Of a DNA stretch of 64,000 nucleotides, positions 3,957 to 15,468 are shown one piece after another. The translations under genes and the position numbers were made by a program. The stretch's first letter is position 1; every line of letters begins with the position of its first letter. This DNA comes from Bdellovibrio reynosensis (GTDB lineage Bacteria; Bdellovibrionota; Bdellovibrionia; Bdellovibrionales; Bdellovibrionaceae), in NCBI RefSeq assembly GCF_022814725.1, contig NZ_CP093442.1, positions 3,100,001 through 3,164,000 on the forward strand. Direction: 5' to 3'. The notes below the pieces were generated by a model, which was not told the origin of the DNA, made no database searches, and saw nothing but the letters and a program-made list of their open reading frames with translations.

Positions 3957-4226
3957 CTAATGAGAAAGTTTGTCTTTCGCTTTATCAATTCCTCTGTTGA
4001 GCTTGTCGGAAAGTGTATCGCCAGAGTCTTCAAATCGTCCCATAACATCATCTACTTGACGTTTTGCTTCGTCTTTAGATAGTCCGACTTTTTGTTGTAC
4101 TAGACCTTGCAGAGCTTCCGTATTACCTTTAGTTCTTTGGATCTCATCGTCGGTGAGTTCACCCCATTTTTTACGGAGCTCACCGGAAATCTCTTTGATT
4201 TTTCCTTCGAAGATATCTTTATTCAT
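3957..4226 (-). CDS. CsbD-like general stress protein
   Basis: Small hydrophilic CsbD-family protein of 89 residues. The family N-terminal signature is clear: MNKDIFEGKIKEISGELR followed by KKWGELTDDE. The second half is a Lys/Asp-rich helix ending KLNRGIDKAKDKLSH. CsbD is a sigma-B general-stress gene in Bacillus and its homologues are widespread stress-induced proteins without known activity. A strong AGGAGGTC SD lies 7 nt before the ATG. A TATAAT-like hexamer lies a little further upstream on the minus strand, but no convincing -35 is seen. It is divergent from the flagellar operon. Confidence 0.88.
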   Translation of the reverse strand: MNKDIFEGKIKEISGELRKKWGELTDDEIQRTKGNTEALQGLVQQKVGLSKDEAKRQVDDVMGRFEDSGDTLSDKLNRGIDKAKDKLSH

Positions 4227-4348
4227 AAAGACCTCCTGTTGCTTTCAATTATAACACTCACGTTATTTTTTGATACTGGACAGTCAAATCTTCCCGCCAA
4301 AACTTTGACTACTGTCAGAGAAAAATTGCACCGGAAACATTTTCCCCC

Positions 4349-4365
4349 CAGGCAAAATTTGCCTG
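4349..4365. promoter_or_regulatory. Perfect palindrome upstream of fliL
   Basis: Sequence CAGGCAAA-A-TTTGCCTG has 8-bp perfect arms around one central base. It lies between the divergent csbD and fliL genes, about 80 bp upstream of the likely fliL transcription start, a normal distance for an enhancer-binding-protein site. Operator function is inference. Confidence 0.5.
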
Positions 4366-4380
4366 AGATCAAATATGTTG

Positions 4381-4410
4381 GACCGCAGTCTGTCCGTCTA
4401 GACCACAGTC
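4381..4410 (+). promoter_or_regulatory. Helically phased direct repeats before the fliL promoter
   Basis: GACCGCAGTC at 4381-4390 and GACCACAGTC at 4401-4410 differ at one base and are spaced exactly 20 bp apart, close to two helical turns. They sit just upstream of the sigma-54-like promoter and may be activator sites. A protein binding them is not known from sequence. Confidence 0.45.
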
Positions 4411-4413
4411 CTG

Positions 4414-4430
4414 TTGGCATTCCAGTTGCT
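4414..4430 (+). promoter_or_regulatory. Sigma-54-type (-24/-12) promoter of the flagellar operon
   Basis: TTGGCATTCCAGTTGCT matches the RpoN consensus TGGCAC-N5-TTGC with GG (4416-4417) and GC (4428-4429) separated by exactly 10 nt. Transcription would start near 4440, giving a leader of about 38 nt before fliL. RpoN control of middle flagellar operons is well established in Vibrio, Pseudomonas and Campylobacter. Confidence 0.7.
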
Positions 4431-4460
4431 TACCTTTTCGTAAGGACCACCTTGTGGGTC
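4429..4460 (+). promoter_or_regulatory. Small hairpins at the fliL leader
   Basis: Two adjacent inverted repeats are present: CTTAC/GTAAG (4429-4433, 4440-4444) and GACCAC-CTT-GTGG-GTC (4445-4460, one bulge). The second would lie in the 5' leader directly before the GGAGG SD. Function unknown. Confidence 0.35.
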
Positions 4461-4477
4461 ATCATCATGGAGGATGA

Positions 4478-5014
4478 ATGGCTGAAGAAAAAGCAGCAGC
4501 AGCAGAAGTTAGTGCCGGAGCCGGTGGCGGTTCTGGACAAAAGCCTATCCTATTAATTGCTTTAGCTGTGATTAATATGCTCGTCGTCGCTGGCGTTGGA
4601 TTTATGCTTTACAAAGGACGCCAAAAAGAAGCGGCTGAACCAAAAATCGAACACGTTATTAAAGGTGAAGCTCAGGCGCAAGCGCATGAAGCTACTGAAC
4701 AAAAGGAAGTTATCGGTAAGGTGATTCCACTTGAAACCTTTATCGTGAATCTTGCTGGATCTAAAGGACGTAAAGTTGCCAAAGTGAATATGGAGCTTGA
4801 AGTTCAAGGTGAACACGTTTTAGAAGAAATCGAAAAACGTAAAGCGCAAATACGCGATATCATCATTATCATTCTGTCTTCAAAGTCCTTTGAAGACGTT
4901 TCATCGCGTGAAGGTAAAGACAATCTAAGAAATGAAATCAAGGACACCATCAACTCTTTCCTAGTTCAAGGAAAGATCTCTAACGTGTTCTTCACTGAGT
5001 TTATCTATAACTAA
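4478..5014 (+). CDS. fliL: Flagellar basal body-associated protein FliL
   Basis: Single-pass inner-membrane protein that rings the stator units of the flagellar motor. Of 178 residues, the first 22 are Ala/Gly/Glu-rich and cytoplasmic. A membrane helix follows (about 23-44, ILLIALAVINMLVVAGVGFM), then a periplasmic domain containing VIPLETFIVNLAG, which aligns with the conserved FliL core, and a C-terminal end FLVQGKISNVFFTEFIYN typical of the family. SD GGAGG lies 4 nt before the ATG. It is the first gene of a tightly packed flagellar operon reading to fliA, driven by the sigma-54-like promoter just upstream. Confidence 0.92.
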   Translation: MAEEKAAAAEVSAGAGGGSGQKPILLIALAVINMLVVAGVGFMLYKGRQKEAAEPKIEHVIKGEAQAQAHEATEQKEVIGKVIPLETFIVNLAGSKGRKVAKVNMELEVQGEHVLEEIEKRKAQIRDIIIIILSSKSFEDVSSREGKDNLRNEIKDTINSFLVQGKISNVFFTEFIYN

Positions 5015-5023
5015 GGCAGGACT

Positions 5024-6028
5024 ATGAATCAGGTTCTATCGCAAAGTGAAGTAGATGCTCTGTTAGCCGCCGTCTCTGATGGCGACGTCGCCTCGTCGGA
5101 TTCGCCGAAGGCCGAAACAGCGCAGAACTTGGGTAAGGTCGATGAGCGTAAGATTGTTTCCTACGATCTTACCAGCCAAGACCGTATTATCCGTGGTCGT
5201 CTACCACAGCTTGAAGTTATTTACGAAAAGTTCATGAGAGCTTTCCGCGTTTCTCTATCTTCAGCACTTCGTAAAATCGCTTCGATCACTTTAACGTCCA
5301 CAGAATTTTTAAAATTCGGTGAGTTTATCAATACATTGCCAATGCCAACATGCATGAGCGTTCTGCGTTTTGGTAACTTGCGTGGTTCGGCCCTTTTCGT
5401 TATCGAAAGTAAGCTTGCTTACGCATTAGTAGATAGCTTCTTTGGTGGCGCGGATCGTCCTTATACAAAAATTGACGGTAAAGATTTTACTCCGATTGAA
5501 CTTTCCATCGTGCAAAAAGTCGTGGGTCTTGCGATCAACGATCTAGAGCAAGCGTGGGCTTCGATTGAAAAAATCGGTTGTTCTTTTGTTCGTACCGAAG
5601 TGAATCCACAATTCGTAGGTATCGTGCCTCCGACAGACGTGGTTATCGCTTCTACATTTGACGTGGAATTGGAAAACGCGACAGGAACTATTTCCATCGT
5701 TATTCCTTACGCGACTATCGAGCCGATTAAACAAAAACTTTCCACTGGTTTCCAAGTAGAGTCAGACCAAACAGATAAAAAACTTTGGACTTCGATCATC
5801 CATGAACAGCTTTTAGAAACTGACATGGAAATCAAAGTGAATCTTGGTGAAACAGAGATCAAACTTAAAGACATGATGAATCTTAAAGTGGGCGACGTGC
5901 TTCCTTTAGATCAGGATGCTTCTGGTGAGTTTGATGTGACAGTTGAAGGCGTTAAAAAATTTAAAGGTTATTACGGAATACATCACGGCACAGTGGCAGT
6001 TCAAGTAACTCGTCCGGTGCAGAAGTAA
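5024..6028 (+). CDS. fliM: Flagellar motor switch protein FliM
   Basis: C-ring switch protein of 334 residues, normal length. The N-terminal CheY-P binding peptide MNQVLSQSEVDALLAAV is intact, so rotational switching by chemotaxis signals is expected. The middle CheC-like domain carries the GG hinge region around LVDSFFGGADRPY. The C-terminal SpoA domain (about residues 250-330) includes KVGDVLPLD. It assembles with FliG above and FliN below. SD AGGAC; 9 nt separate it from fliL. Confidence 0.96.
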   Translation: MNQVLSQSEVDALLAAVSDGDVASSDSPKAETAQNLGKVDERKIVSYDLTSQDRIIRGRLPQLEVIYEKFMRAFRVSLSSALRKIASITLTSTEFLKFGEFINTLPMPTCMSVLRFGNLRGSALFVIESKLAYALVDSFFGGADRPYTKIDGKDFTPIELSIVQKVVGLAINDLEQAWASIEKIGCSFVRTEVNPQFVGIVPPTDVVIASTFDVELENATGTISIVIPYATIEPIKQKLSTGFQVESDQTDKKLWTSIIHEQLLETDMEIKVNLGETEIKLKDMMNLKVGDVLPLDQDASGEFDVTVEGVKKFKGYYGIHHGTVAVQVTRPVQK

Positions 6029-6043
6029 GAGCAGGGGGAATAG

Positions 6044-6424
6044 ATGACAGACGATTCTTTAGATAATTTGGCTGAACAGCTGGTGGCGGAAGCAACCGGC
6101 ATGGCAGAAGGCGGCGGCGGCGGAGCTAAAAAATCTGCAGCAGCAGACCTTAGCGGCAGCCAAGATAGAAATTTAAATTTAATTTTGGATATTCCATTAA
6201 AAGTTTCCGTTGAACTGGGTCGTACTAAAATGCCAGTCAGCGAACTTTTAAACTTAACGCAAGGAAGTGTTATTGAGCTTAACAAACTTGCGGGTGAGCC
6301 CATGGAAGTTTACGTGAATGACAAATTGATCGCCCGCGGTGAAGCGGTTGTGGTCAATGAAAAATTCGGTGTTCGTTTAACTGATATTATTTCTCCGGCT
6401 GAGCGCGTAGAGCAGCTTAAGTAA
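6044..6424 (+). CDS. fliN: Flagellar motor switch protein FliN
   Basis: Small C-ring protein of 126 residues. The first 45 residues are acidic and contain a poly-Gly stretch. The C-terminal SpoA domain starts at LILDIPLKVSVELGRTKM and continues with PVSELLNLTQGSVIELNK and ARGEAVVVNEKFGVRLTDI, which is diagnostic for FliN/YscQ-type proteins. It forms the base of the C-ring and docks the FliH/FliI export ATPase complex. It follows fliM by 15 nt with a GGGGGAA SD. Confidence 0.96.
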   Translation: MTDDSLDNLAEQLVAEATGMAEGGGGGAKKSAAADLSGSQDRNLNLILDIPLKVSVELGRTKMPVSELLNLTQGSVIELNKLAGEPMEVYVNDKLIARGEAVVVNEKFGVRLTDIISPAERVEQLK

Positions 6425-6434
6425 GAGGTATTAG

Positions 6435-7118
6435 ATGCGTTTGTTGCTTTCTTTCATTTTTATGGTTTCGGTTTCAGCGCAAGCTGGTGAAGCAGTTGTT
6501 GAAAAAACAGCGGCGGCAGCAGTGGTTGCGGAAAACACAACATCAGCAGCAGTTTCGGAAGAAGCCGCTACTGCTGTTGAAACAAATAAAATCGACAACC
6601 GTCATGAGTCAGAGATTCCTTTGAATCTTGATAAAAATAAGAAAGCAGCTTCAGAAGGCAGTGGCCTTTTCCGCATTCTATTTACACTTTCGATTTTAGG
6701 TTTGGTGGGTACGGGTGCTTACTTCTTCCTGCGTAAGTACTCTGTTCCAAAAGCTAAAAAGCACCAAACTCAAATCAAAGTTTTGCAACAGCACTATTTG
6801 GGTCCTAAGAAAAGCTTGGCAATTGTAAGAGTTGCCGGTGAGTCGATCCTGATTGGTATCACTGATCACAATATTTCCATGATCAAGCCTTTGTCTTTGA
6901 TGGACGATGAAGTTCCAGAAGAAGCTCCACAAAATTTCGGTAAAGTTCTTGGTGGTATGTCGCCAAAAGCAAGCTTCACGAATGACGATGAGACGGAAGA
7001 GGCTGCTCCAGTAGCAAAACGTGCTTCCCGTGACCTTGATAGCGATGAAGAATTCGCGATCAGCGGTATTAAAGATATCGTTTCTAAAAGACTTAAGGGA
7101 ATGAGGTCTTTCCAGTGA
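6435..7118 (+). CDS. fliO: Flagellar export protein FliO
   Basis: Assembly factor for the FliPQR export gate. Of 227 residues, the N-terminus looks like a signal peptide (MRLLLSFIFMVSVSAQA), followed by an Ala/Glu-rich periplasmic stretch. One membrane helix lies around residues 78-98, and a cytoplasmic FliO domain includes QIKVLQQHYLGPKKSLAIVR, the conserved family segment. The remaining tail is acidic and ends ISGIKDIVSKRLKGMRSF. The length is longer than E. coli FliO but similar to that of bacteria with long periplasmic FliO. It overlaps fliP by 4 nt (GTGA). Confidence 0.88.
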   Translation: MRLLLSFIFMVSVSAQAGEAVVEKTAAAAVVAENTTSAAVSEEAATAVETNKIDNRHESEIPLNLDKNKKAASEGSGLFRILFTLSILGLVGTGAYFFLRKYSVPKAKKHQTQIKVLQQHYLGPKKSLAIVRVAGESILIGITDHNISMIKPLSLMDDEVPEEAPQNFGKVLGGMSPKASFTNDDETEEAAPVAKRASRDLDSDEEFAISGIKDIVSKRLKGMRSFQ

Positions 7119-7873
7119 TTAAAATGAATTGGTCCCGCTGGAGTTTATTACTTATTCCTTTTTTCTTGTTGGTAGCCTCTAGCGCATTTGCGCAAGTGAC
7201 TTTGCCAACTGTAAATCTTGGTTTTAAAACGACAGACAATCCAAATGAAGTGGTGAACGCGGTTAAATTGATTCTGATCATGACAGTGCTAACTTTGGCA
7301 CCGGCGATCTTGATCATGATGACTGGTTTTACTCGCATCATCATCGTTCTATCCTTCTTAAGACAAGCGATGGGTGTGCAACAAATGCCGCCAAATCAAT
7401 TGCTAGTGGGCTTGTCTTTATTCCTGACTTTCTTTGTGATGCAACCGGTATTTAACGAAGTAAATACGAAAGGTATTCAGCCTTATCTTGCGGGAACGAT
7501 CTCTCAAGAAGTGGCGATTGATAATACTTTGGCTCCGCTTCGTAAATTCATGTTTCATCAGACCCGTGATTCTGACTTAGCTTTGTTTATTAAATTATCA
7601 AAAGTTGAAAAGCCAAAAACCCGTGCGGATGTTCCGACGATGGTTTTAGTTCCTGCCTTCGTGGTTTCAGAACTTAAGACGGCTTTCCAAATTGGTTTCA
7701 TCATTTTCCTTCCGTTCCTGGTCATCGATATCGTGGCAGCCAGTGTGCTTATGGCCATGGGTATGATGATGCTTCCGCCAGTTGTGATTTCATTACCTTT
7801 CAAGATCATGTTGTTCGTTTTGGTTGATGGTTGGGGATTATTAATTGGTTCGATGGTTAAAAGTTTCGGTTAG
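7115..7873 (+). CDS. fliP: Flagellar type III export gate protein FliP
   Basis: Export-gate core subunit of 252 residues. A cleavable-type signal sequence (residues 1-27) is followed by four hydrophobic segments. The family signature FTRIIIVLSFLRQAMGVQQM is followed by PPNQLLVGLSLFLTFFVM. The late segment includes DIVAASVLMAMGMMMLPP, the second highly conserved FliP block. GTG at 7115 is taken as the start because GAGG lies 8 nt upstream and it overlaps the fliO stop; ATG at 7124 is possible. Confidence 0.96.
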   Translation: MIKMNWSRWSLLLIPFFLLVASSAFAQVTLPTVNLGFKTTDNPNEVVNAVKLILIMTVLTLAPAILIMMTGFTRIIIVLSFLRQAMGVQQMPPNQLLVGLSLFLTFFVMQPVFNEVNTKGIQPYLAGTISQEVAIDNTLAPLRKFMFHQTRDSDLALFIKLSKVEKPKTRADVPTMVLVPAFVVSELKTAFQIGFIIFLPFLVIDIVAASVLMAMGMMMLPPVVISLPFKIMLFVLVDGWGLLIGSMVKSFG

Positions 7874-7882
7874 AGGGGAAAA

Positions 7883-8155
7883 ATGACTGAAGAATTAGTG
7901 ATTAAACTTGGACAAGATGCCCTAAGAACAACTGCGATGCTGGCGGCTCCGTTACTTATTAGCACCCTGGTTGTGGGTTTGGCTGTCAGTATTTTTCAAG
8001 CTTTGACTCAAATCAATGAGGCGACTTTAACTTTCATTCCAAAAATGATCGTCGTTGCCTTGGTGATCGTGTTAGCTGGTCCGTGGATGATGGACGTGAT
8101 GAGCGCTTACACTGTGAATCTTTTCGATAACATCGCTGTGATGGTAAGGGAATAG
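7883..8155 (+). CDS. fliQ: Flagellar export gate protein FliQ
   Basis: Two-helix export-gate subunit of 90 residues. The hairpin of two membrane helices is visible (about 16-40 and 50-75), and the family pattern is SIFQALTQINEATLTFIPKM. It assembles with FliP and FliR in a helical core. SD GAGGGG lies just after the fliP stop. Confidence 0.96.
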   Translation: MTEELVIKLGQDALRTTAMLAAPLLISTLVVGLAVSIFQALTQINEATLTFIPKMIVVALVIVLAGPWMMDVMSAYTVNLFDNIAVMVRE

Positions 8156-8156
8156 C

Positions 8157-8936
8157 TTGATCAACTGGAACACGATGACCGAAGCACAAATTTTGCTTTT
8201 TGCGCTGATTCTTCTGCGCATGATTGCTTATGTGTTTTCGTCAGCGGTGTTTGGTTCGCCGACAGTGAATACTCCGGTGAAAGTTTTACTATCCATCGTT
8301 CTTAGCATTCTTTTGTTCCCTTTAGTAAAAGTCGGCAACGTCGACTATGCCCTTATTTCAAATGAAATCATCGGCTTAGCTATCCGCGAGATGATCATCG
8401 GATTATCCCTGGGATTTTTAACCCGTCTGTTCTTCTTTGTCGTCACAATGACAGGGGACCTAGTATCCATGTCTGTGGGATTGAGCGCTTCGCAATTATA
8501 CAATCCAATGCTCGGTTCCCATGGTAATACCATCGATCAATTCTATTCGACTGTGGGAACCTTGGTGTTCCTTGCGATTAATGGCCATCACATGCTTATC
8601 AGTGCAATTGCACAGAGCTATGACATCGTTCCGGTGGCTTCTTTGAGTTTAAATTTAACTGCTTTTGCAGACGTCGCATTGTATGGGCAAACAGCCATGA
8701 TAATGGCGATCAAGATGTGCGCTCCGGTCTTGGTGACTATACTTTTGGTTAATTTAGCGATGGGTATTTTAGGTCGTGCAGTACCACAGATAAATGTCTT
8801 GGTAACAAGCATGCCCGTAACGATCCTATTGGGTATGACAGTGGTTTTCCTGTGCCTTCCTCTACTAGTCCTTGAGATGAACGGGCTAGTGGAAATCACG
8901 GCTGGAAAACTATTCGATGTGATGAAACAATTATAA
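8157..8936 (+). CDS. fliR: Flagellar export gate protein FliR (TTG start)
   Basis: Third subunit of the export gate, 259 residues with about six hydrophobic segments. The conserved region GLAIREMIIGLSLGFLTRL and later LAMGILGRAVPQINVLVTSM identify the family. The start is an unusual TTG one base after the fliQ stop, supported by AAGGGA 5 nt upstream; no better start exists before the first membrane segment. Tight coupling to fliQ is likely to keep subunit ratios. Confidence 0.93.
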   Translation: MINWNTMTEAQILLFALILLRMIAYVFSSAVFGSPTVNTPVKVLLSIVLSILLFPLVKVGNVDYALISNEIIGLAIREMIIGLSLGFLTRLFFFVVTMTGDLVSMSVGLSASQLYNPMLGSHGNTIDQFYSTVGTLVFLAINGHHMLISAIAQSYDIVPVASLSLNLTAFADVALYGQTAMIMAIKMCAPVLVTILLVNLAMGILGRAVPQINVLVTSMPVTILLGMTVVFLCLPLLVLEMNGLVEITAGKLFDVMKQL

Positions 8937-8943
8937 AGAGTAC

Positions 8944-8958
8944 CCCGAAGGATTCGGG
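8944..8958. repeat. Small CCCGAA/TTCGGG hairpin between fliR and flhB
   Basis: A 6-bp stem with a 3-nt loop lies in the only noticeable gap (61 bp) inside the flagellar operon. There is no T-run, so it is not a typical terminator. It resembles the hairpins near 26.8 and 55.8 kb. Confidence 0.4.
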
Positions 8959-8997
8959 ATCTTTGAAAAGCTTTTTAGTTCTAGGAAGGAACTTTAG

Positions 8998-10059
8998 GTG
9001 TCAGACGAGAGCGGCGAAAAAACCGAACAGGCAACGGACGCGAGACGGGAAGAGTTTCGCAAGCAGGGTAACGTTGCCCATACAAAGGAACTTGCGTCAG
9101 CAGTAGTTTTACTTGCTGCTGCGGGTGGTTTGTATGCAACGGGCCGTTTCTTTTTCCAAAATCTTTACGAAGTATTCCACTATGCATTCGGACCAGACAT
9201 GGTTCACTTAGTTCGTGAAGGCAAATTCACTGATGCCTTTTATTTCTGCGGTTCCAAAGCTTTAATTCTAATGGCTCCAGTTCTTGGCATGGCCGGAATC
9301 ATCGGGGCTGCTTCTTCGATTTTGCAAATCGGTTTCCTGCAAGTGGAAGACGCTCTTTCCCCGAAGTTTGATAAGTTAAATCCAGTGGAAGGCGCGAAAC
9401 GTATCATGAGCATGCGTGCCGTAATGGAAGCAGTGAAGTCCATTCTGAAAATGGCTGCTGTGGGCGTGGTGCTGTACTTCTTGTTGCGCGGTGAAGTGTC
9501 GCAAGTTCCATACATGGTTACTTTCTCTGTAGAACAAATCCTAATGTACCTGGGCACCGTGGTTGTAAAACTATTGGGCGGTGTAGGAACAGTTATGTTG
9601 GTCATCGCTGTCGCTGATTATTTTTATCAGCGCTGGGATCTTGAAAAAAAAATGATGATGACGAAACAAGAAATCAAAGAAGAACACAAGCAGCGTGAGG
9701 GTGATCCTATGATCAAATCACGCATTCGTCGTATCCAAAGGGAAATGGCTTCTAAGCGTATGATGTCAGAAGTTCCTAAGGCTGACGTTATCATCACGAA
9801 CCCAACCCACATTGCTGTGTGCTTAAAATACTCTGATAATTTACCGGCTCCGCAATTGATCGCTATGGGTGCTGATCACGTAGCGGAAAAAATCAAGGAA
9901 CTGGCCCGTGAACACAATATTCCAATTGTGGAAAACAAGCCGTTAGCCCGCACTATTTTTAAAACAATGAAAATTGGACAAGTTATTCCTCGGGAGCTTT
10001 TTGTCGCTGTGGCTGAAGTGCTTTCGTATGTTTACCGTTTACGTAGGAAGAAAAGATAA
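8998..10059 (+). CDS. flhB: Flagellar export switch protein FlhB
   Basis: Substrate-specificity switch of the flagellar export apparatus, 353 residues. The N-terminal motif GEKTEQATDARREEFRKQGN is diagnostic. Four membrane segments follow, then a cytoplasmic domain with the autocleavage motif NPTH at residues 268-271 (asparagine encoded at 9799). The site is intact, so cleavage and the hook-to-filament switch are expected. GTG start with an AGGAAGGA SD. The stop overlaps the flhA start by one base (TAATG). Confidence 0.96.
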   Translation: MSDESGEKTEQATDARREEFRKQGNVAHTKELASAVVLLAAAGGLYATGRFFFQNLYEVFHYAFGPDMVHLVREGKFTDAFYFCGSKALILMAPVLGMAGIIGAASSILQIGFLQVEDALSPKFDKLNPVEGAKRIMSMRAVMEAVKSILKMAAVGVVLYFLLRGEVSQVPYMVTFSVEQILMYLGTVVVKLLGGVGTVMLVIAVADYFYQRWDLEKKMMMTKQEIKEEHKQREGDPMIKSRIRRIQREMASKRMMSEVPKADVIITNPTHIAVCLKYSDNLPAPQLIAMGADHVAEKIKELAREHNIPIVENKPLARTIFKTMKIGQVIPRELFVAVAEVLSYVYRLRRKKR

Positions 10060-12158
10060 TGGATCAAGTATTTCAATTCTTAAAAAGATTCGAAAAGTAT
10101 ACGAAGAATACGGATCTTTTTATTGCCTTTGGTATGCTGGCAATTCTGGCGGTGATGATCATTCCATTGCCACCGCTTTTACTTGATATCAGCTTAACTT
10201 TTTCTTTAGCCATCAGTATCTTAATCCTCCTAGTAAGTCTTTATACACAAAGAGCTTTGGATTTCACATCCTTCCCGTCGTTGCTGTTAATGACGACCTT
10301 ATTCCGTCTGTCACTGAATGTGGCAACGACTCGTTTGATCCTGACCCACGGTCATGAAGGTGAAAAAGCAGCCGGTGATGTTATTGCGTCTTTCGCGAAC
10401 TTCGTTGTCGGCGGAAACTACGTCATCGGTTTCATCATGTTTATGATCCTTATCGTGATCAACTTCATCGTTATCACCAAAGGTTCGGGTCGTGTGGCCG
10501 AGGTTGCTGCCCGCTTCACCTTGGATGCTATGCCAGGTAAGCAAATGTCGATTGATGCGGAGTTAAACTCTGGTCACATCACAGAAGCTGAAGCTCGTAA
10601 ACGCCGCAGACAAATTGAACAAGAAGCCGACTTTTACGGCGCGATGGACGGTGCCTCGAAGTTCGTACGTGGTGATGCCATTGCCGGTATCATCATCACG
10701 ATCATCAATATCTTGGGTGGTCTTGCGATTGGCGTCATGCAAAAGGGCCTGGATATCAGTACAGCTGCGAAGTATTACACGATGTTGACCATCGGTGACG
10801 GTCTACTTGCACAGATTCCAGCTCTTATCATTTCAACCGCAGCCGGTGCCATCGTAACCCGTACTTCTAATTCTGATAAAGACATGGGTGAAGAGGTTAC
10901 AAGCCAACTTTTAGTAAACCCACGTGCCGTTATGATTTCTGGTGGCGTGTTGGTTCTTTTGGGCTTGGTTCCAGGTCTTCCAACAATTCCATTCTTATTC
11001 ATGGGTGGTTTGCTTGCGGGTCTTTCATGGGTTCTTAGAAAATACAGAGCTGAAATGGCCGCTGAAGAACGCAAAGCAAGTGAAGCATCACTTAATGCGC
11101 CGAAAAAAGAAAACATCGAAACCATGCTTCCATTGGATATGGTTGAGTTGGAAGTTGGTTACGGCCTTATCAATATCGTTGAATCAGATCAAAGCGGTGA
11201 CTTGTTAGAACGTATCGTCAGTATCCGTAAGCAATTTGCTTTGGATTTGGGTATCGTTGTTCCAAGTATTCATATCCGTGACAACTTGCAGTTGGCTCCG
11301 GGCGAATACCGTTTATTGATCAAAGGTAACCGCGTTGGTGGTGGTCTGCTTCGTCCAGAATCCTTGCTTGCCATGGATCCAGGTAACGTTGCTGAACGCA
11401 TCGAAGGTATTCCGACAAAAGAACCTGCGTTTGGTTTGGATGCTCTATGGATTTCGCCTGGTCGTAAAGAAGATGCAGAGATCGCTGGTTACACAGTGGT
11501 TGATCTTCCAACAGTTATGGCGACTCATCTTACAGAGATCATTCGTACCCATGCCCATGAATTGTTGGGTCGTCAGGAAGCTTCAACTCTTATTGAGAAC
11601 TTCAAAAAATCACATCCAAAAGTGGTTGAAGAGCTTATCCCAGATCTATTGCCATTGGGATCTGTGGTTCGCGTATTGCAAAGCTTGTTAAAAGAGCAAG
11701 TTTCAATCCGTAATCTATTAACGATTTTTGAAACATTGGCAGATGAAGCTCCAAGAAATAAAGATATCGAAGTTCTTACTGAACAAGTTCGTCGTGGTTT
11801 AGCTCGTGGTATCACGGCGAAGTACACTACGGATCAAGGAAACATCCCAGTGATGACTCTTCATCCGATCATCGAAGAGCTTATCGCAAACTCCCTATTG
11901 CAAACAGAGCAAGGGGTTCAACTAGTGATGGATCCAAACAGTGCCCATCGTTTGATTAACGAAATCGCGCGCACTGTGGAAAACCATCCTGAAGTTGCTA
12001 GTCAGCCGATTTTGCTGACCAGCCCAACTTCGCGCCGCCATATATATAAATTAACGTCTCGATTTATTCCGCAGTTAGTTGTGCTTTCGCATAACGAACT
12101 TACTTCAGACGCCGATGTTCAGTCAGTAGCACTTGTGGAGATGAGCCATGCAGGTTAA
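10059..12158 (+). CDS. flhA: Flagellar biosynthesis protein FlhA
   Basis: Major export-gate protein that forms the nonameric ring docking chaperone-substrate complexes. At 699 residues it has normal length. The N-terminal half has about eight membrane segments and the FHIPEP-family signature region (FPSLLLMTTLFRLSLNVATT). The cytoplasmic linker region contains RFTLDAMPGKQMSIDAELN. The C-terminal half is the soluble four-subdomain ring domain. It starts one base inside flhB and overlaps flhF by 11 bp. Confidence 0.97.
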   Translation: MDQVFQFLKRFEKYTKNTDLFIAFGMLAILAVMIIPLPPLLLDISLTFSLAISILILLVSLYTQRALDFTSFPSLLLMTTLFRLSLNVATTRLILTHGHEGEKAAGDVIASFANFVVGGNYVIGFIMFMILIVINFIVITKGSGRVAEVAARFTLDAMPGKQMSIDAELNSGHITEAEARKRRRQIEQEADFYGAMDGASKFVRGDAIAGIIITIINILGGLAIGVMQKGLDISTAAKYYTMLTIGDGLLAQIPALIISTAAGAIVTRTSNSDKDMGEEVTSQLLVNPRAVMISGGVLVLLGLVPGLPTIPFLFMGGLLAGLSWVLRKYRAEMAAEERKASEASLNAPKKENIETMLPLDMVELEVGYGLINIVESDQSGDLLERIVSIRKQFALDLGIVVPSIHIRDNLQLAPGEYRLLIKGNRVGGGLLRPESLLAMDPGNVAERIEGIPTKEPAFGLDALWISPGRKEDAEIAGYTVVDLPTVMATHLTEIIRTHAHELLGRQEASTLIENFKKSHPKVVEELIPDLLPLGSVVRVLQSLLKEQVSIRNLLTIFETLADEAPRNKDIEVLTEQVRRGLARGITAKYTTDQGNIPVMTLHPIIEELIANSLLQTEQGVQLVMDPNSAHRLINEIARTVENHPEVASQPILLTSPTSRRHIYKLTSRFIPQLVVLSHNELTSDADVQSVALVEMSHAG

Positions 12159-13626
12159 GAAATTTGAAGCTCGAACAATGAAAGAAGCTCTTGAAATGGT
12201 TAAGACCCAATTGGGTCCTGACGCCATCATTCTATCAGCTCGTGACAACAACAAAAGTTACGGGCTTGTAGGCGAGGGTAGCGTTGAAATCACTGCGGCA
12301 GTTTCTGAAGAAACTTTGCAGAAAAAGAAATTTGCGGAAAGCAAACTTCGTGAACAGGATCGCGCCAGATTCCAACAAAGTTCAGCACGCCAGCAAAAAG
12401 AGCTGATCCACAAAATGGTGGAAAAGCATGTGCAAAAATCTCAAGGCCCTGCACCCATCACTCAACGTCGCTACATCGATATCGAAGACGAAGCTGAATT
12501 CAATCGTCAACAAACTGTTTCTGATGAAAGAGTTCGTAATGCTGCTCAACGTGCATTGCATGCTTTCCAAGAGCAGGAAGAAATCTTTGCAGCTAAAGGC
12601 AACTACTCTAAAAAAGCTGTAGCGCAAGCTCCACAAGCTCAGGCTCCTGCGGTCAGAGCAGTGCAAGCGGTTAAACCTGCGGCTCCAGTCGCTGCAACTG
12701 AATCTCCAGAGATTTTGGCTCTTAAAAATGAAATCGCAAGTTTGAAGCAAGTCATCACTCAGTTCCAGCAAATGCCTCAAAACTTTGTTGGCACTCATCC
12801 GGGCGCTGATTATGGCATCAATTACGATTTAAGTTTTGTATACGATAAATTGACTTCGGCGGGTATGGCTCAAGAAATTGCAGCTGAAATCCTAACGAAA
12901 GCTCAAGACACTTTGCCTGCGCTGAAACTTAAAAATAAATCTTTGGTTGAAGCATGGGTGGCTCGTCACGTGCTTGATACTACGAAAGTGGTTTCGCACC
13001 CAACGCAAGGTAAAATCCACTGTTTCGTGGGACCTGCGGGCAGCGGTAAAACTTCTGCATTAATTAAAATGGCAAGTCAGATGGTGGTACGTGAAGGTAA
13101 GAAAATTGCCTTACTGACCACAGACACTTTCAAAGTCGGCGCTGCTGACCAAATGAAAATCTACGCGCAAATTTTGAATGTTCCATTCTCTGTGATCCGT
13201 TCACAGAACGATTGGACAAACTTGATGCGTTACCTTGCAAATGTTGACTGCGTATTAGTCGACTACACTGGCTTAAGTCTTAAAAATAACGATGAAGTGA
13301 ACATGCTAAAAAGCTTGCTTCCACCTCAGGCGTTGAATCCAAATATTCATATGGTTCTTTCTACCAATGCCAAAGACAGCGATGCGACTGAACTAGGTCG
13401 TCGTTATGCTGCTTTGGGATATAAAGACGTGATCTTTACATCCTTAGATGAATCAACTCAGCACGGAACGATTTATAACTTTATGAAGCGTTTTGATGTG
13501 CCATTGCATTCATTCGGTATTGGTTCAAGAGTTCCAGAAGATTTCGAATTCGCGACAAAAGAACGTCTTCTAGACCTTATTTTTAAAATCACAAAATTCA
13601 AACAACAGGATTCTGAGGCTGTATGA
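12148..13626 (+). CDS. flhF: SRP-type GTPase FlhF with degenerate G motifs
   Basis: Polar-flagellum placement GTPase related to Ffh/FtsY, 492 residues. The first 70 residues match the FlhF N-terminus (MQVKKFEARTMKEALEMVK). A long basic/Gln-rich B domain follows, then the NG domain from about residue 230. The P-loop GPAGSGKTS is intact at 295-303 and DTFKVGAADQMK is present. The usual DTAGRS motif reads DYTGLS (372-377) and the usual TKLDE reads TSLDE (431-435), so nucleotide recognition may be altered. It overlaps flhA by 11 bp and flhG by 4 bp. Confidence 0.93.
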   Translation: MQVKKFEARTMKEALEMVKTQLGPDAIILSARDNNKSYGLVGEGSVEITAAVSEETLQKKKFAESKLREQDRARFQQSSARQQKELIHKMVEKHVQKSQGPAPITQRRYIDIEDEAEFNRQQTVSDERVRNAAQRALHAFQEQEEIFAAKGNYSKKAVAQAPQAQAPAVRAVQAVKPAAPVAATESPEILALKNEIASLKQVITQFQQMPQNFVGTHPGADYGINYDLSFVYDKLTSAGMAQEIAAEILTKAQDTLPALKLKNKSLVEAWVARHVLDTTKVVSHPTQGKIHCFVGPAGSGKTSALIKMASQMVVREGKKIALLTTDTFKVGAADQMKIYAQILNVPFSVIRSQNDWTNLMRYLANVDCVLVDYTGLSLKNNDEVNMLKSLLPPQALNPNIHMVLSTNAKDSDATELGRRYAALGYKDVIFTSLDESTQHGTIYNFMKRFDVPLHSFGIGSRVPEDFEFATKERLLDLIFKITKFKQQDSEAV

Positions 13627-14453
13627 GAAGCATGAATTCTTTCCACCTGAACCGCACAAGAACAATTAGCATCACCTCTGGTAAAGGGGGCGTTGGTAAA
13701 ACCACACTAGTGGCGAATTTGGCGTTAACTTTGGCGCAAAAGGGTAAAAAGGTCTTAATCCTTGATGGCGATTTAGGCATGGCCAACGTCGATATTATGT
13801 TTGGTGTAAAAACCCAAGGAAACATTCACGATATTATCTCTGGCCGTAAAGAAATGAAGGACATCCTAGTTGAAGTTTCTAAGGATGTTTTCTTAATTCC
13901 TGGTGGCAGCGGAGTTGTTGATTTCAATAACATGAATCACTTCGAGCGCAGAGCCATGGTGGAAGCGGTGAGCGCTTTGCCTCACGGTTTTGATTATCTT
14001 CTTGTTGATACTGCTCCTGGTATCGCTGAAAATGTTTTGTTCTTAAATTCTGCGGCTCAGTCGGTATCTGTAGTGATCACTCCAGACCCTGCGAGCTTCG
14101 CTGATGCTTATGCGCTTATTAAAGTTCTAAATAAGAACTACAAGGTGAATCACTTCTCTATCATCTGCAATCAAGTGCGTGATGAAAACGAGGGATTGGG
14201 CCTGTACCAACGCTTTAACGATGTCGTGAATAAGTTTCTGTACATTGGTCTGGACTACTGGGGTTCAGTTCCCAACGACGTTGTTTTAAGAAAAGCAACA
14301 CAAATGCAACGTCTCATCGTGAGACACGATGCGGGTGCAGAATCAACTAAGGCAATTCGTCAAATTTCTAATCACATCGAGAAATCTTCCAAACAAATCG
14401 AGAGCACCGGTGGCATGCAAATGTTCTGGGATCAGGTCGTTGGATTTGCTTAA
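13623..14453 (+). CDS. flhG: MinD-like ATPase FlhG
   Basis: Flagellar number regulator of the MinD/ParA family, 276 residues. The deviant Walker A SGKGGVGKTT lies at 19-28. The switch regions ILDGDLGMANVDIMFG and LVDTAPGI are intact. The protein begins only about 14 residues before the Walker A strand and lacks an obvious DQAxxLR peptide, the N-terminal motif that stimulates FlhF GTPase in other bacteria. It overlaps the flhF stop by 4 bp (ATGA), so translation is coupled. Confidence 0.92.
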   Translation: MRSMNSFHLNRTRTISITSGKGGVGKTTLVANLALTLAQKGKKVLILDGDLGMANVDIMFGVKTQGNIHDIISGRKEMKDILVEVSKDVFLIPGGSGVVDFNNMNHFERRAMVEAVSALPHGFDYLLVDTAPGIAENVLFLNSAAQSVSVVITPDPASFADAYALIKVLNKNYKVNHFSIICNQVRDENEGLGLYQRFNDVVNKFLYIGLDYWGSVPNDVVLRKATQMQRLIVRHDAGAESTKAIRQISNHIEKSSKQIESTGGMQMFWDQVVGFA

Positions 14454-14524
14454 TCATTGAAATTAGAATTGGACTTTCAGCTCACTGGTCTGTTTGTTAA
14501 CATAGTGTTCAAGAGGGAAAAAAA

Positions 14525-15310
14525 ATGGCGAAAAATGCGGCGTTGTTGAAGAAGTACAAGGAAGAACCTCGTAAAGTTGCTGCTAACCAAAAAGATGAAT
14601 TGATCCGCGAATACGCGCCGCTAATTAAATTTATCGCGCAAAAGATTGCAGTCCGCCTTCCTTCTAATATCGAATTAGACGATTTGATCTCTGCAGGCGT
14701 TATCGGTTTGATGGATGCTATCGAAAAATATGATTCATCCCGTGATAATAAATTTAAAACTTACGCTGAATTCCGTATCCGTGGAGCAATCCTTGATGAA
14801 TTACGTGCGCAAGATTGGGTGCCGCGTTCAATCCGTGATAAAGCCAAACTTCTTGATAAAACAATGGTGCAATTAGAAGCCGATCTGGGCCGTGCACCAA
14901 CGGATGAAGAAGTTGCTAAAGCATTGAATATCAATATTGATGAGTTCCATGACCTTGTGAACCAAGTTCGCCCTGTAAGTCTTTTACCCATCGATCAGGC
15001 GACAACGTTCAGTAACACTGACAAGAAATCCATCATGGATATCTTGGAAGGTTCTAGAACAAACAGCCCCTTCAATCAATTAAACGTAAAAAACATCAAA
15101 GAAGTCGTAGCTCAAGCCATTGAAGAATTGCCTGAAAGACAACGCTTGGTGCTTTCTCTTTATTACTATGAAGATTTGAACTTAAAAGAAATCGGTCAAG
15201 TTCTTCGTGTGACTGAATCCCGCGTTTCTCAGTTGCATGCCCAAGCAGTCACTCGTTTGCGCGCTAAGCTCGCTGCCACCATCGGTGCAGGAGAGCTTGA
15301 AATCGCTTAA
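14525..15310 (+). CDS. fliA: Flagellar sigma factor FliA (sigma-28)
   Basis: Sigma-28 family factor for late flagellar genes, 261 residues. Regions are visible in order: region 2 (ELDDLISAGVIGLMDAIEKY, then FKTYAEFRIRGAILDELRAQ), region 3 around VPRSIRDKAKLLDKTM, and region 4 (LPERQRLVLSLYYYEDLNLK followed by the helix-turn-helix with VTESRVSQLHAQAVTRLR). The set is typical of the FliA/WhiG group. It is the last gene of the operon, 71 bp after flhG, with a GAGGG SD and a terminator downstream. Confidence 0.95.
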   Translation: MAKNAALLKKYKEEPRKVAANQKDELIREYAPLIKFIAQKIAVRLPSNIELDDLISAGVIGLMDAIEKYDSSRDNKFKTYAEFRIRGAILDELRAQDWVPRSIRDKAKLLDKTMVQLEADLGRAPTDEEVAKALNINIDEFHDLVNQVRPVSLLPIDQATTFSNTDKKSIMDILEGSRTNSPFNQLNVKNIKEVVAQAIEELPERQRLVLSLYYYEDLNLKEIGQVLRVTESRVSQLHAQAVTRLRAKLAATIGAGELEIA

Positions 15311-15451: not shown

Positions 15452-15468
15452 TTGGCAACGGAATTGCT
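15452..15468 (+). promoter_or_regulatory. Sigma-54-like promoter of the downstream lipoprotein gene
   Basis: TTGGCAACGGAATTGCT has GG (15454-15455) and GC (15466-15467) exactly 10 nt apart and both half-sites TGGCA and TTGCT intact. The start point would be near 15478, about 30 nt before the ATG at 15508. Confidence 0.65.

Follow-up and report, generated by a model that had tools for sequence, protein, structure and literature searches.

The window, that is, the whole 64-kb stretch of DNA analysed here, belongs to a genome of a single 3.58-Mb contig, whose nearest named relatives in a FliM search were Bdellovibrio, including B. bacteriovorus strain kdesi. The control region described here is situated in the 251 bp that separate fliL (4478-5014) from a CsbD-like gene on the minus strand (3957-4226), and fliL is followed by ten genes, which we take to be fliM to flhG from their order and sequence, and by fliA. 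The following features were assigned, in window coordinates:

4282-4317, plus strand: distal GTCA/TGAC element AGTCAAAT...GCCAAAACTTTGACTACTGTCA, conserved in the genus alignment, with similar elements at flgF and flgB
4333-4345, no strand: second palindrome GGAAACATTTTCC, 18 bp upstream of the first, assigned from genus conservation
4349-4365, no strand: 17-bp palindrome with conserved core GGCAAAATTTGCC at 4351-4363, assigned from genus conservation
4369-4381, plus strand: conserved block TCAAATATGTTGG, 1.70 bits per column
4381-4390, plus strand: distal direct repeat GACCGCAGTC, the first repeat of the preliminary description, not generally conserved
4401-4414, plus strand: promoter-proximal box GACCACAGTC-CTGT, containing the second repeat of that description, abutting the -24 element and assigned from an order-wide logo
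4415-4430, plus strand: putative sigma-54 core promoter TGGCATTCCAGTTGCT, with GG at 4416-4417 and GC at 4428-4429, assigned from sequence and conservation
4441, plus strand: predicted transcription start (+1), placed 12 bases past C4429 from sigma-54 geometry
4443-4460, plus strand: hairpin (GGACCAC..GTGGGTC) at the 5' end of the predicted mRNA, assigned from folding against shuffles in 23 species
4478-5014, plus strand: fliL, first gene of the putative operon (Pfam FliL PF03748, E 1e-24)
5024-14453, plus strand: fliM, fliN, fliO, fliP, fliQ, fliR, flhB, flhA, flhF and flhG, open reading frames with intergenic gaps of at most 61 bp
14525-15310, plus strand: fliA (sigma-28 type), last gene of the putative operon, with Sigma70 r2/r3/r4 domains, 71 bp after flhG

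Only comparison between species can tell which parts of such a region exceed chance; the repeat word and the palindrome class occur in this genome at chance frequency, and conservation between species was therefore used as the criterion. For the genus, 23 congeners were compared with the window's genome; FliL was present in all 24 genomes and had a close orthologue in 23, and one genome (G016) was left out because its FliL matches were distant, leaving 23 fliL loci. Upstream of fliL, these loci align from the start codon back to about -125, nearly without gaps around the promoter, and bits per column were computed on the 17 non-redundant sequences among them. For the order, a FliM search of a named genome collection gave 73 loci, mostly labelled as Bdellovibrionales relatives, of which 71 were analysed after removal of L205 (without a usable fliL frame) and L250 (partial fliM). 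Two distant FliL-like paralogues (G000:C1:1587157-1587612 and 1817296-1817781; 31% and 26% identical to FliL) were also seen in the window's genome, with counterparts in most other genomes of the genus.

The -24/-12 element, read directly as TTGGCATTCCAGTTGCT at 4414-4430, had been called near-consensus in the preliminary description; positions 4415-4430 in fact make up the sole perfect (11/11) match to TGGCAYN5TTGCW in the window, with GG and GC 10 bp apart. Seven further sites matched at 10/11, and five shuffles of the window gave 0-8 sites at 10/11 or better. Genome-wide, TGGCAN6TTGCW had 25 matches versus 14 for the reversed control. The core was identical at all 23 genus loci, though the upstream genes vary, and the -24 and -12 positions reached a mean of 2.00 bits per column. 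In the order set, a perfect TGGCAYN5TTGCT was the best upstream site at 67 of the 71 loci, and the remaining four (L220, L228, L238 and L248) departed from it at one position, a level not reached in 60 mononucleotide shuffles of each. The search for rpoN that had been proposed, the absence of which would have told against the reading, returned one RpoN DNA-binding domain in the genome (PF04552, E 1.6e-65).

Judged by sequence, then, a sigma-54 promoter drives the operon from fliL to fliA, and its core is nearly unchanged across the order. Order-wide conservation, the presence of rpoN and sigma-54 activators in the genome and a predicted start at 4441 all agree with the earlier assignment, and we have good confidence that the region is an enhancer-dependent sigma-54 promoter of the fliL-fliM-...-flhG-fliA operon. 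RNA polymerase with RpoN would sit on 4415-4430, awaiting an ATP-using activator, and transcription would start near 4441 and run for about 11 kb to fliA across gaps of at most 71 bp. We infer co-transcription of fliL to fliA from this arrangement. The gap between flhG and fliA held no good FliA-type site (best match 6/11), and a weak sigma-70-like match was present just before fliA (14497-14526), which by its sequence may represent a second promoter for this gene. Separately, the stretch from fliA to a 559-aa gene (15508), which has a lipoprotein-like start and no Pfam match, contains a second sigma-54-like site, TGGCAACGGAATTGCT (15453-15468). Among the 25 genomic sigma-54-like sites, 13 are outside open reading frames of at least 70 aa and at most 200 bp before the start of one, and several of them precede proteins with signal-peptide-like starts.

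Conserved sigma-54 sites were also found at flgF (24 loci) and at the operon with flgB, fliE-K and flgD-E (21 loci: 20 plus the genome's own, of 24 genomes), where the -12 element reads GTGC and not TTGC. Comparison of column profiles (width 10) showed that the fliL and flgB regions share TCATAGAATT, GAAACNTTTT and CAAATATGTT, with none of 400 shuffles as good for each. Upstream of flgB, the fliL block TCAAATATGTTGG is found again as its reverse complement (none of 400 column shuffles did as well), and weaker elements are shared between the column profiles of fliL and flgF (p of about 0.02 to 0.03, uncorrected).

The perfect 17-bp palindrome that had been described is present as CAGGCAAA-A-TTTGCCTG at 4349-4365, centred on 4357, 84 bp before the predicted start; by arithmetic, chance alone would give about one pair of 8-bp arms around a single spacer base in every 64 kb. 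Conservation picks it out together with a second palindrome: the core of the first carried 1.82 bits per column and the second 1.49, the first matched at 11 or more of 13 positions at -64 (counted from the -24 element) in 22 of 23 genus loci, and the second at 10 or more of 13 at -82/-81, again in 22 of 23. Outside the genus, the two palindromes were absent from most loci of the order in the 71-locus set, the first reappearing, at -65 and with 10 to 13 of 13 matches, in L231, L232, L234 and L244, four distant loci. The enhancer would consist of the conserved upstream block from about -130 to -35 from the -24 element (approximately 4282-4381), with its two similar 13-bp palindromes and the GTCA/TGAC element. 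A FleQ box reads GTCAA-N4-TTGAC, and GCCAAAACTTTGAC at 4296-4309, within that element, differs from it at one arm position when compared by eye. The claim of a complete enhancer-dependent control region is thus supported for the sigma-54 promoter and, in part, for the palindrome, which belongs to a conserved pair of 13-mers with 18 bp between them; it is not supported for the ordered pair of repeats, and it lacked the second palindrome, the GTCA/TGAC element and the hairpin of the 5' untranslated region.

It is conceivable, if on the unlikely side, that the sigma-54 promoter is real and the palindromes belong to another regulator (a repressor, a nucleoid protein or a cyclic-di-GMP-dependent factor), the activator acting from elsewhere or from solution. 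Consistent with this, the palindrome core class GGMAANANTTKCC is not enriched in the genome (12 matches versus 11 in the control), and Helicobacter FlgR is described as working without DNA binding (PMC3930126). Against it, the palindromes and upstream elements lie at the usual distance for an enhancer and with fixed spacing, and two further flagellar sigma-54 promoters have similar upstream elements.

Downstream of the predicted start, the mRNA would open with a small hairpin, probably a stabiliser. The hairpin occurs in nearly all of the 23 species, with a mean z of -3.05 versus mononucleotide shuffles; that of the window itself is weaker (-5.2 kcal/mol, z -1.3), and it is nearly absent in L061. 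The inverted repeat (4444-4460) could instead act at the DNA level, as an operator placed beyond the start like those of some flagellar enhancers, a reading to which we give perhaps one chance against several: its half-site GGACCAC resembles the GACCAC of the proximal box, and ftr sites downstream of the start are reportedly known in Caulobacter, to go by the title of a paper. However, the spacing of the arms varies from 3 to 8 between species with the pairing kept, and L073 has a different hairpin at the same place; a stem maintained while the loop length varies favours an RNA structure over a DNA operator. The end of the leader, TCATCATGGAGGATGA (4459-4478), was also nearly invariant in the 23 species, many of which, the window's species not among them, have an in-frame earlier FliL start at ATGGAGGATGAAGTG.

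The two 10-mers GACCGCAGTC (4381-4390) and GACCACAGTC (4401-4410), found by direct reading and with a repeat finder, are nearly identical and stand 20 bp apart, start to start, where they had been reported. As an ordered pair of operators they did not survive comparison. The proximal repeat carried 1.19 bits per column, the distal repeat 0.79 and the stretch between them 0.47; the distal copy reached 9/10 identity or better in 6 of 23 genus loci, and GACN4GTC was present there in 4 of the 23 and in a single one of the 71 order loci. As a genome-wide operator, GACCRCAGTC was ruled out by its 6 matches versus 14 in the control, two of the 6 being those at the fliL promoter. The proximal repeat, read in the order-wide alignment, is part of a box fixed beside -24: GAC-N4-GTC-N2-GT directly upstream of TGGCA was the second conserved feature around the -24 anchor (logo of 75 non-redundant sequences out of 94 from the pooled genus and order sets, which have some species in common). 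GTC at -7 was present at 55 of 71 order loci versus 1.3% expected by composition, and the full GACN4GTC beside -24 at 16 of 71 versus 0.02% expected.

The box also recurs at the other flagellar promoters, as had been suggested for the repeats, but not as a 20-bp tandem. With a proximal-box matrix (GACNNARGTC) trained on 55 sequences from outside the genus, and with dinucleotide shuffles as background, matches per region amounted to 3.78 for fliL (0.45 expected), 4.88 for flgF (0.71) and 2.48 for flgB (0.42), that is, about 6-8 times the expectation; the counts take both strands, so that a palindromic site is counted twice in the real and the shuffled sequences alike, and the genus fliL region has common ancestry with the training set, whereas the flgF and flgB regions do not. 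We think it improbable that the GAC-N4-GTC box is an extended promoter element read by the RpoN or the alpha subunit of the order and not an operator. Its distance to -24, fixed in most of the 71 loci, would suit such an element, whereas the flgF and flgB sigma-54 promoters have similar boxes at other distances (-25, -56, -114; -98), and most other genomic sigma-54-like sites, inspected by eye, have no box beside -24. In the operator reading, the box GACCANNGTC-CTGT touching -24 would be separate from the upstream enhancer; it stands too near for ordinary looping, so that binding there by a regulator which promotes or hinders the loading of polymerase is more likely. As a last alternative, an upstream sigma-70 or FliA promoter driving the operon, with the -24/-12 match fortuitous or minor, would allow a biologically sensible FliA feedback loop, but was rejected as very improbable, given a best FliA-type match of 7/11 upstream of fliL, no sigma-70-type match on the plus strand of 4227-4477 in the scan, and a sigma-54 core conserved across 71 loci.

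The genome encodes 10 strong, full-length activators with the PF00158 domain, nine of them with a GAFTGA-type motif; the tenth (L097:3403-4773) has GAMPGV instead. An NCBIfam scan placed none of the 10 proteins at the cut-off of the FlbD or FlgR flagellar models among the best 25 matches of each. An eleventh homologue, an FlbD-like AAA+ protein without GAFTGA, lies directly before flgB (G000:C1:3016416-3017255; L088:4417-5259) and was the only activator-like gene seen inside a flagellar cluster. GAFTGA was found in none of the 33 members of its family that were examined (23 from the genus, 10 from other genera), whereas 15 of 16 flgB-linked proteins of other families have GAFTGA or GSFTGA, and L260 reads GAFVGA. 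Its Fis-type HTH_8 domain scored 50.9 bits, and the stretch LGISIRTLRNK was identical in 48 of 49 proteins. The best score was obtained on the Caulobacter FlbD model (190 bits versus a cut-off of 750), and the protein has no receiver domain. Walker B is also changed in this family, and is intact in most homologues of the sister families. By this comparison, the gene has retained the region that reads DNA, and the region acting on sigma-54 has been lost.

A plain activator of the FlrC/FleQ type, as had been anticipated, does not fit a cluster-linked homologue that has lost the motif touching sigma-54, and from this loss in the family's flagellar regulator we infer that another protein is the activator; RpoN and one of the nine GAFTGA activators should then control the fliL-fliA promoter. 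The best candidate, put forward tentatively, is an NtrC-type regulator (2989157-2990572), on account of its deep conservation and one shared non-coding element. It is present in 116 of 138 genomes of the order and 87-95% identical within the genus, and the non-coding TTTTGACAGTCCCGTCAAAA near it, behind the stop codon of an upstream kinase, resembles the flgF and flgB elements (0 of 400 shuffles, best of several widths, uncorrected for widths and pairs). A kinase frame of at least 447 residues runs up to the NtrC-type gene in 18 of 30 loci read, with HisKA in the two proteins scanned, and nine of the 23 genus loci, that of the window's species included, have a frame of at most 55 residues; the histidine kinase upstream of 2990572 (L279) is eroded in the window's species and eight other genus loci, where its last codons remain. 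A fliL-type palindrome in the NtrC-type gene's own promoter (GGCAAAAATTTCC, in most of 23 species) was considered and rejected, since in relatives this stretch codes for the end of that kinase (...AKISFxRPVLRS-stop). The distance between the two activator genes was read in 49 hand-picked genomes with both matches on one contig, a sample that is not an unbiased test of linkage.

These observations could be joined in a model that we regard as speculative and rather improbable in its entirety: the FlbD-like regulator of the Bdellovibrionaceae, its sigma-54 contact lost and itself non-remodelling, would still occupy the proximal GAC-N4-GTC box of flagellar sigma-54 promoters, activation would have passed to the NtrC-type regulator, and the pair would gate fliL-fliA, FliA and with it the switch from intraprey growth to attack phase. 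By way of fliA, the promoter would determine how much sigma-28 factor is available, and most attack-phase genes have been proposed to be run by this factor. In Bdellovibrio, FliA has been put forward as global regulator of the attack phase, and in strain HD100 FliA sites were reported in 92 of 140 mapped attack-phase promoters, or two thirds (PMC3627812); the putative sigma-54 step is accordingly placed above FliA. Sigma-54 control of fliA is not named in the available portion of that paper, and the word rpoN is absent from its main text. In the accessible text of two further papers, RpoN of Bdellovibrio is named only as a predicted gene (PMC3464611, PMC11209729), bd0843 in HD100 (PMC3464611). 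Bdellovibrio is absent from the main text of two sigma-54 surveys (PMC3162934, PMC12316311), and a search of the literature by title, mostly outside subscription journals, returned nothing on sigma-54 flagellar promoters of Bdellovibrio. With a nearly invariant sigma-54 promoter heading an operon that ends in fliA, what turns FliA on becomes directly testable.

Control of flagellar genes by sigma-54 is standard in polar flagellates (PMC3930126, PMC7064773, as far as their available text goes), which makes the fliL-fliA promoter one of a known kind; its unusual parts are the fixed box beside -24 and a flagellar activator in decay. In Vibrio and Pseudomonas, sigma-54 drives early or middle flagellar genes, with fliA among the early ones in Vibrio (PMC3930126), and one analysis of sigma-54 promoters mentions P. 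putida fliL (PMC3162934). Bdellovibrio resembles the RpoN-dependent flagellar operons of Vibrio (FlrA/FlrBC) and Pseudomonas in its use of sigma-54, but differs in the box touching -24 and in a cluster-linked activator homologue that has lost GAFTGA. Compared with Caulobacter FlbD and ftr, the likeness drawn from the protein alone, the cluster regulator fits the FlbD model best and has a nearly invariant Fis-type helix, yet it lacks the receiver domain and GAFTGA and scores far under the FlbD cut-off. Activator homologues without GAFTGA include Caulobacter NtrC, TyrR and VpsR, and action on sigma-70 promoters has been reported for some of them (PMC10274813, PMC3162934). Like these, the flgB-adjacent regulator has lost the loop and kept the DNA-binding domain; unlike them, it is flagellar, and its sister-family relatives keep the loop. 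The loss of GAFTGA with an unchanged DNA-binding helix amounts to a natural experiment in rewiring the flagellar hierarchy, and the FliA attack-phase regulon of Bdellovibrio would be the downstream product of the fliL-fliA promoter.
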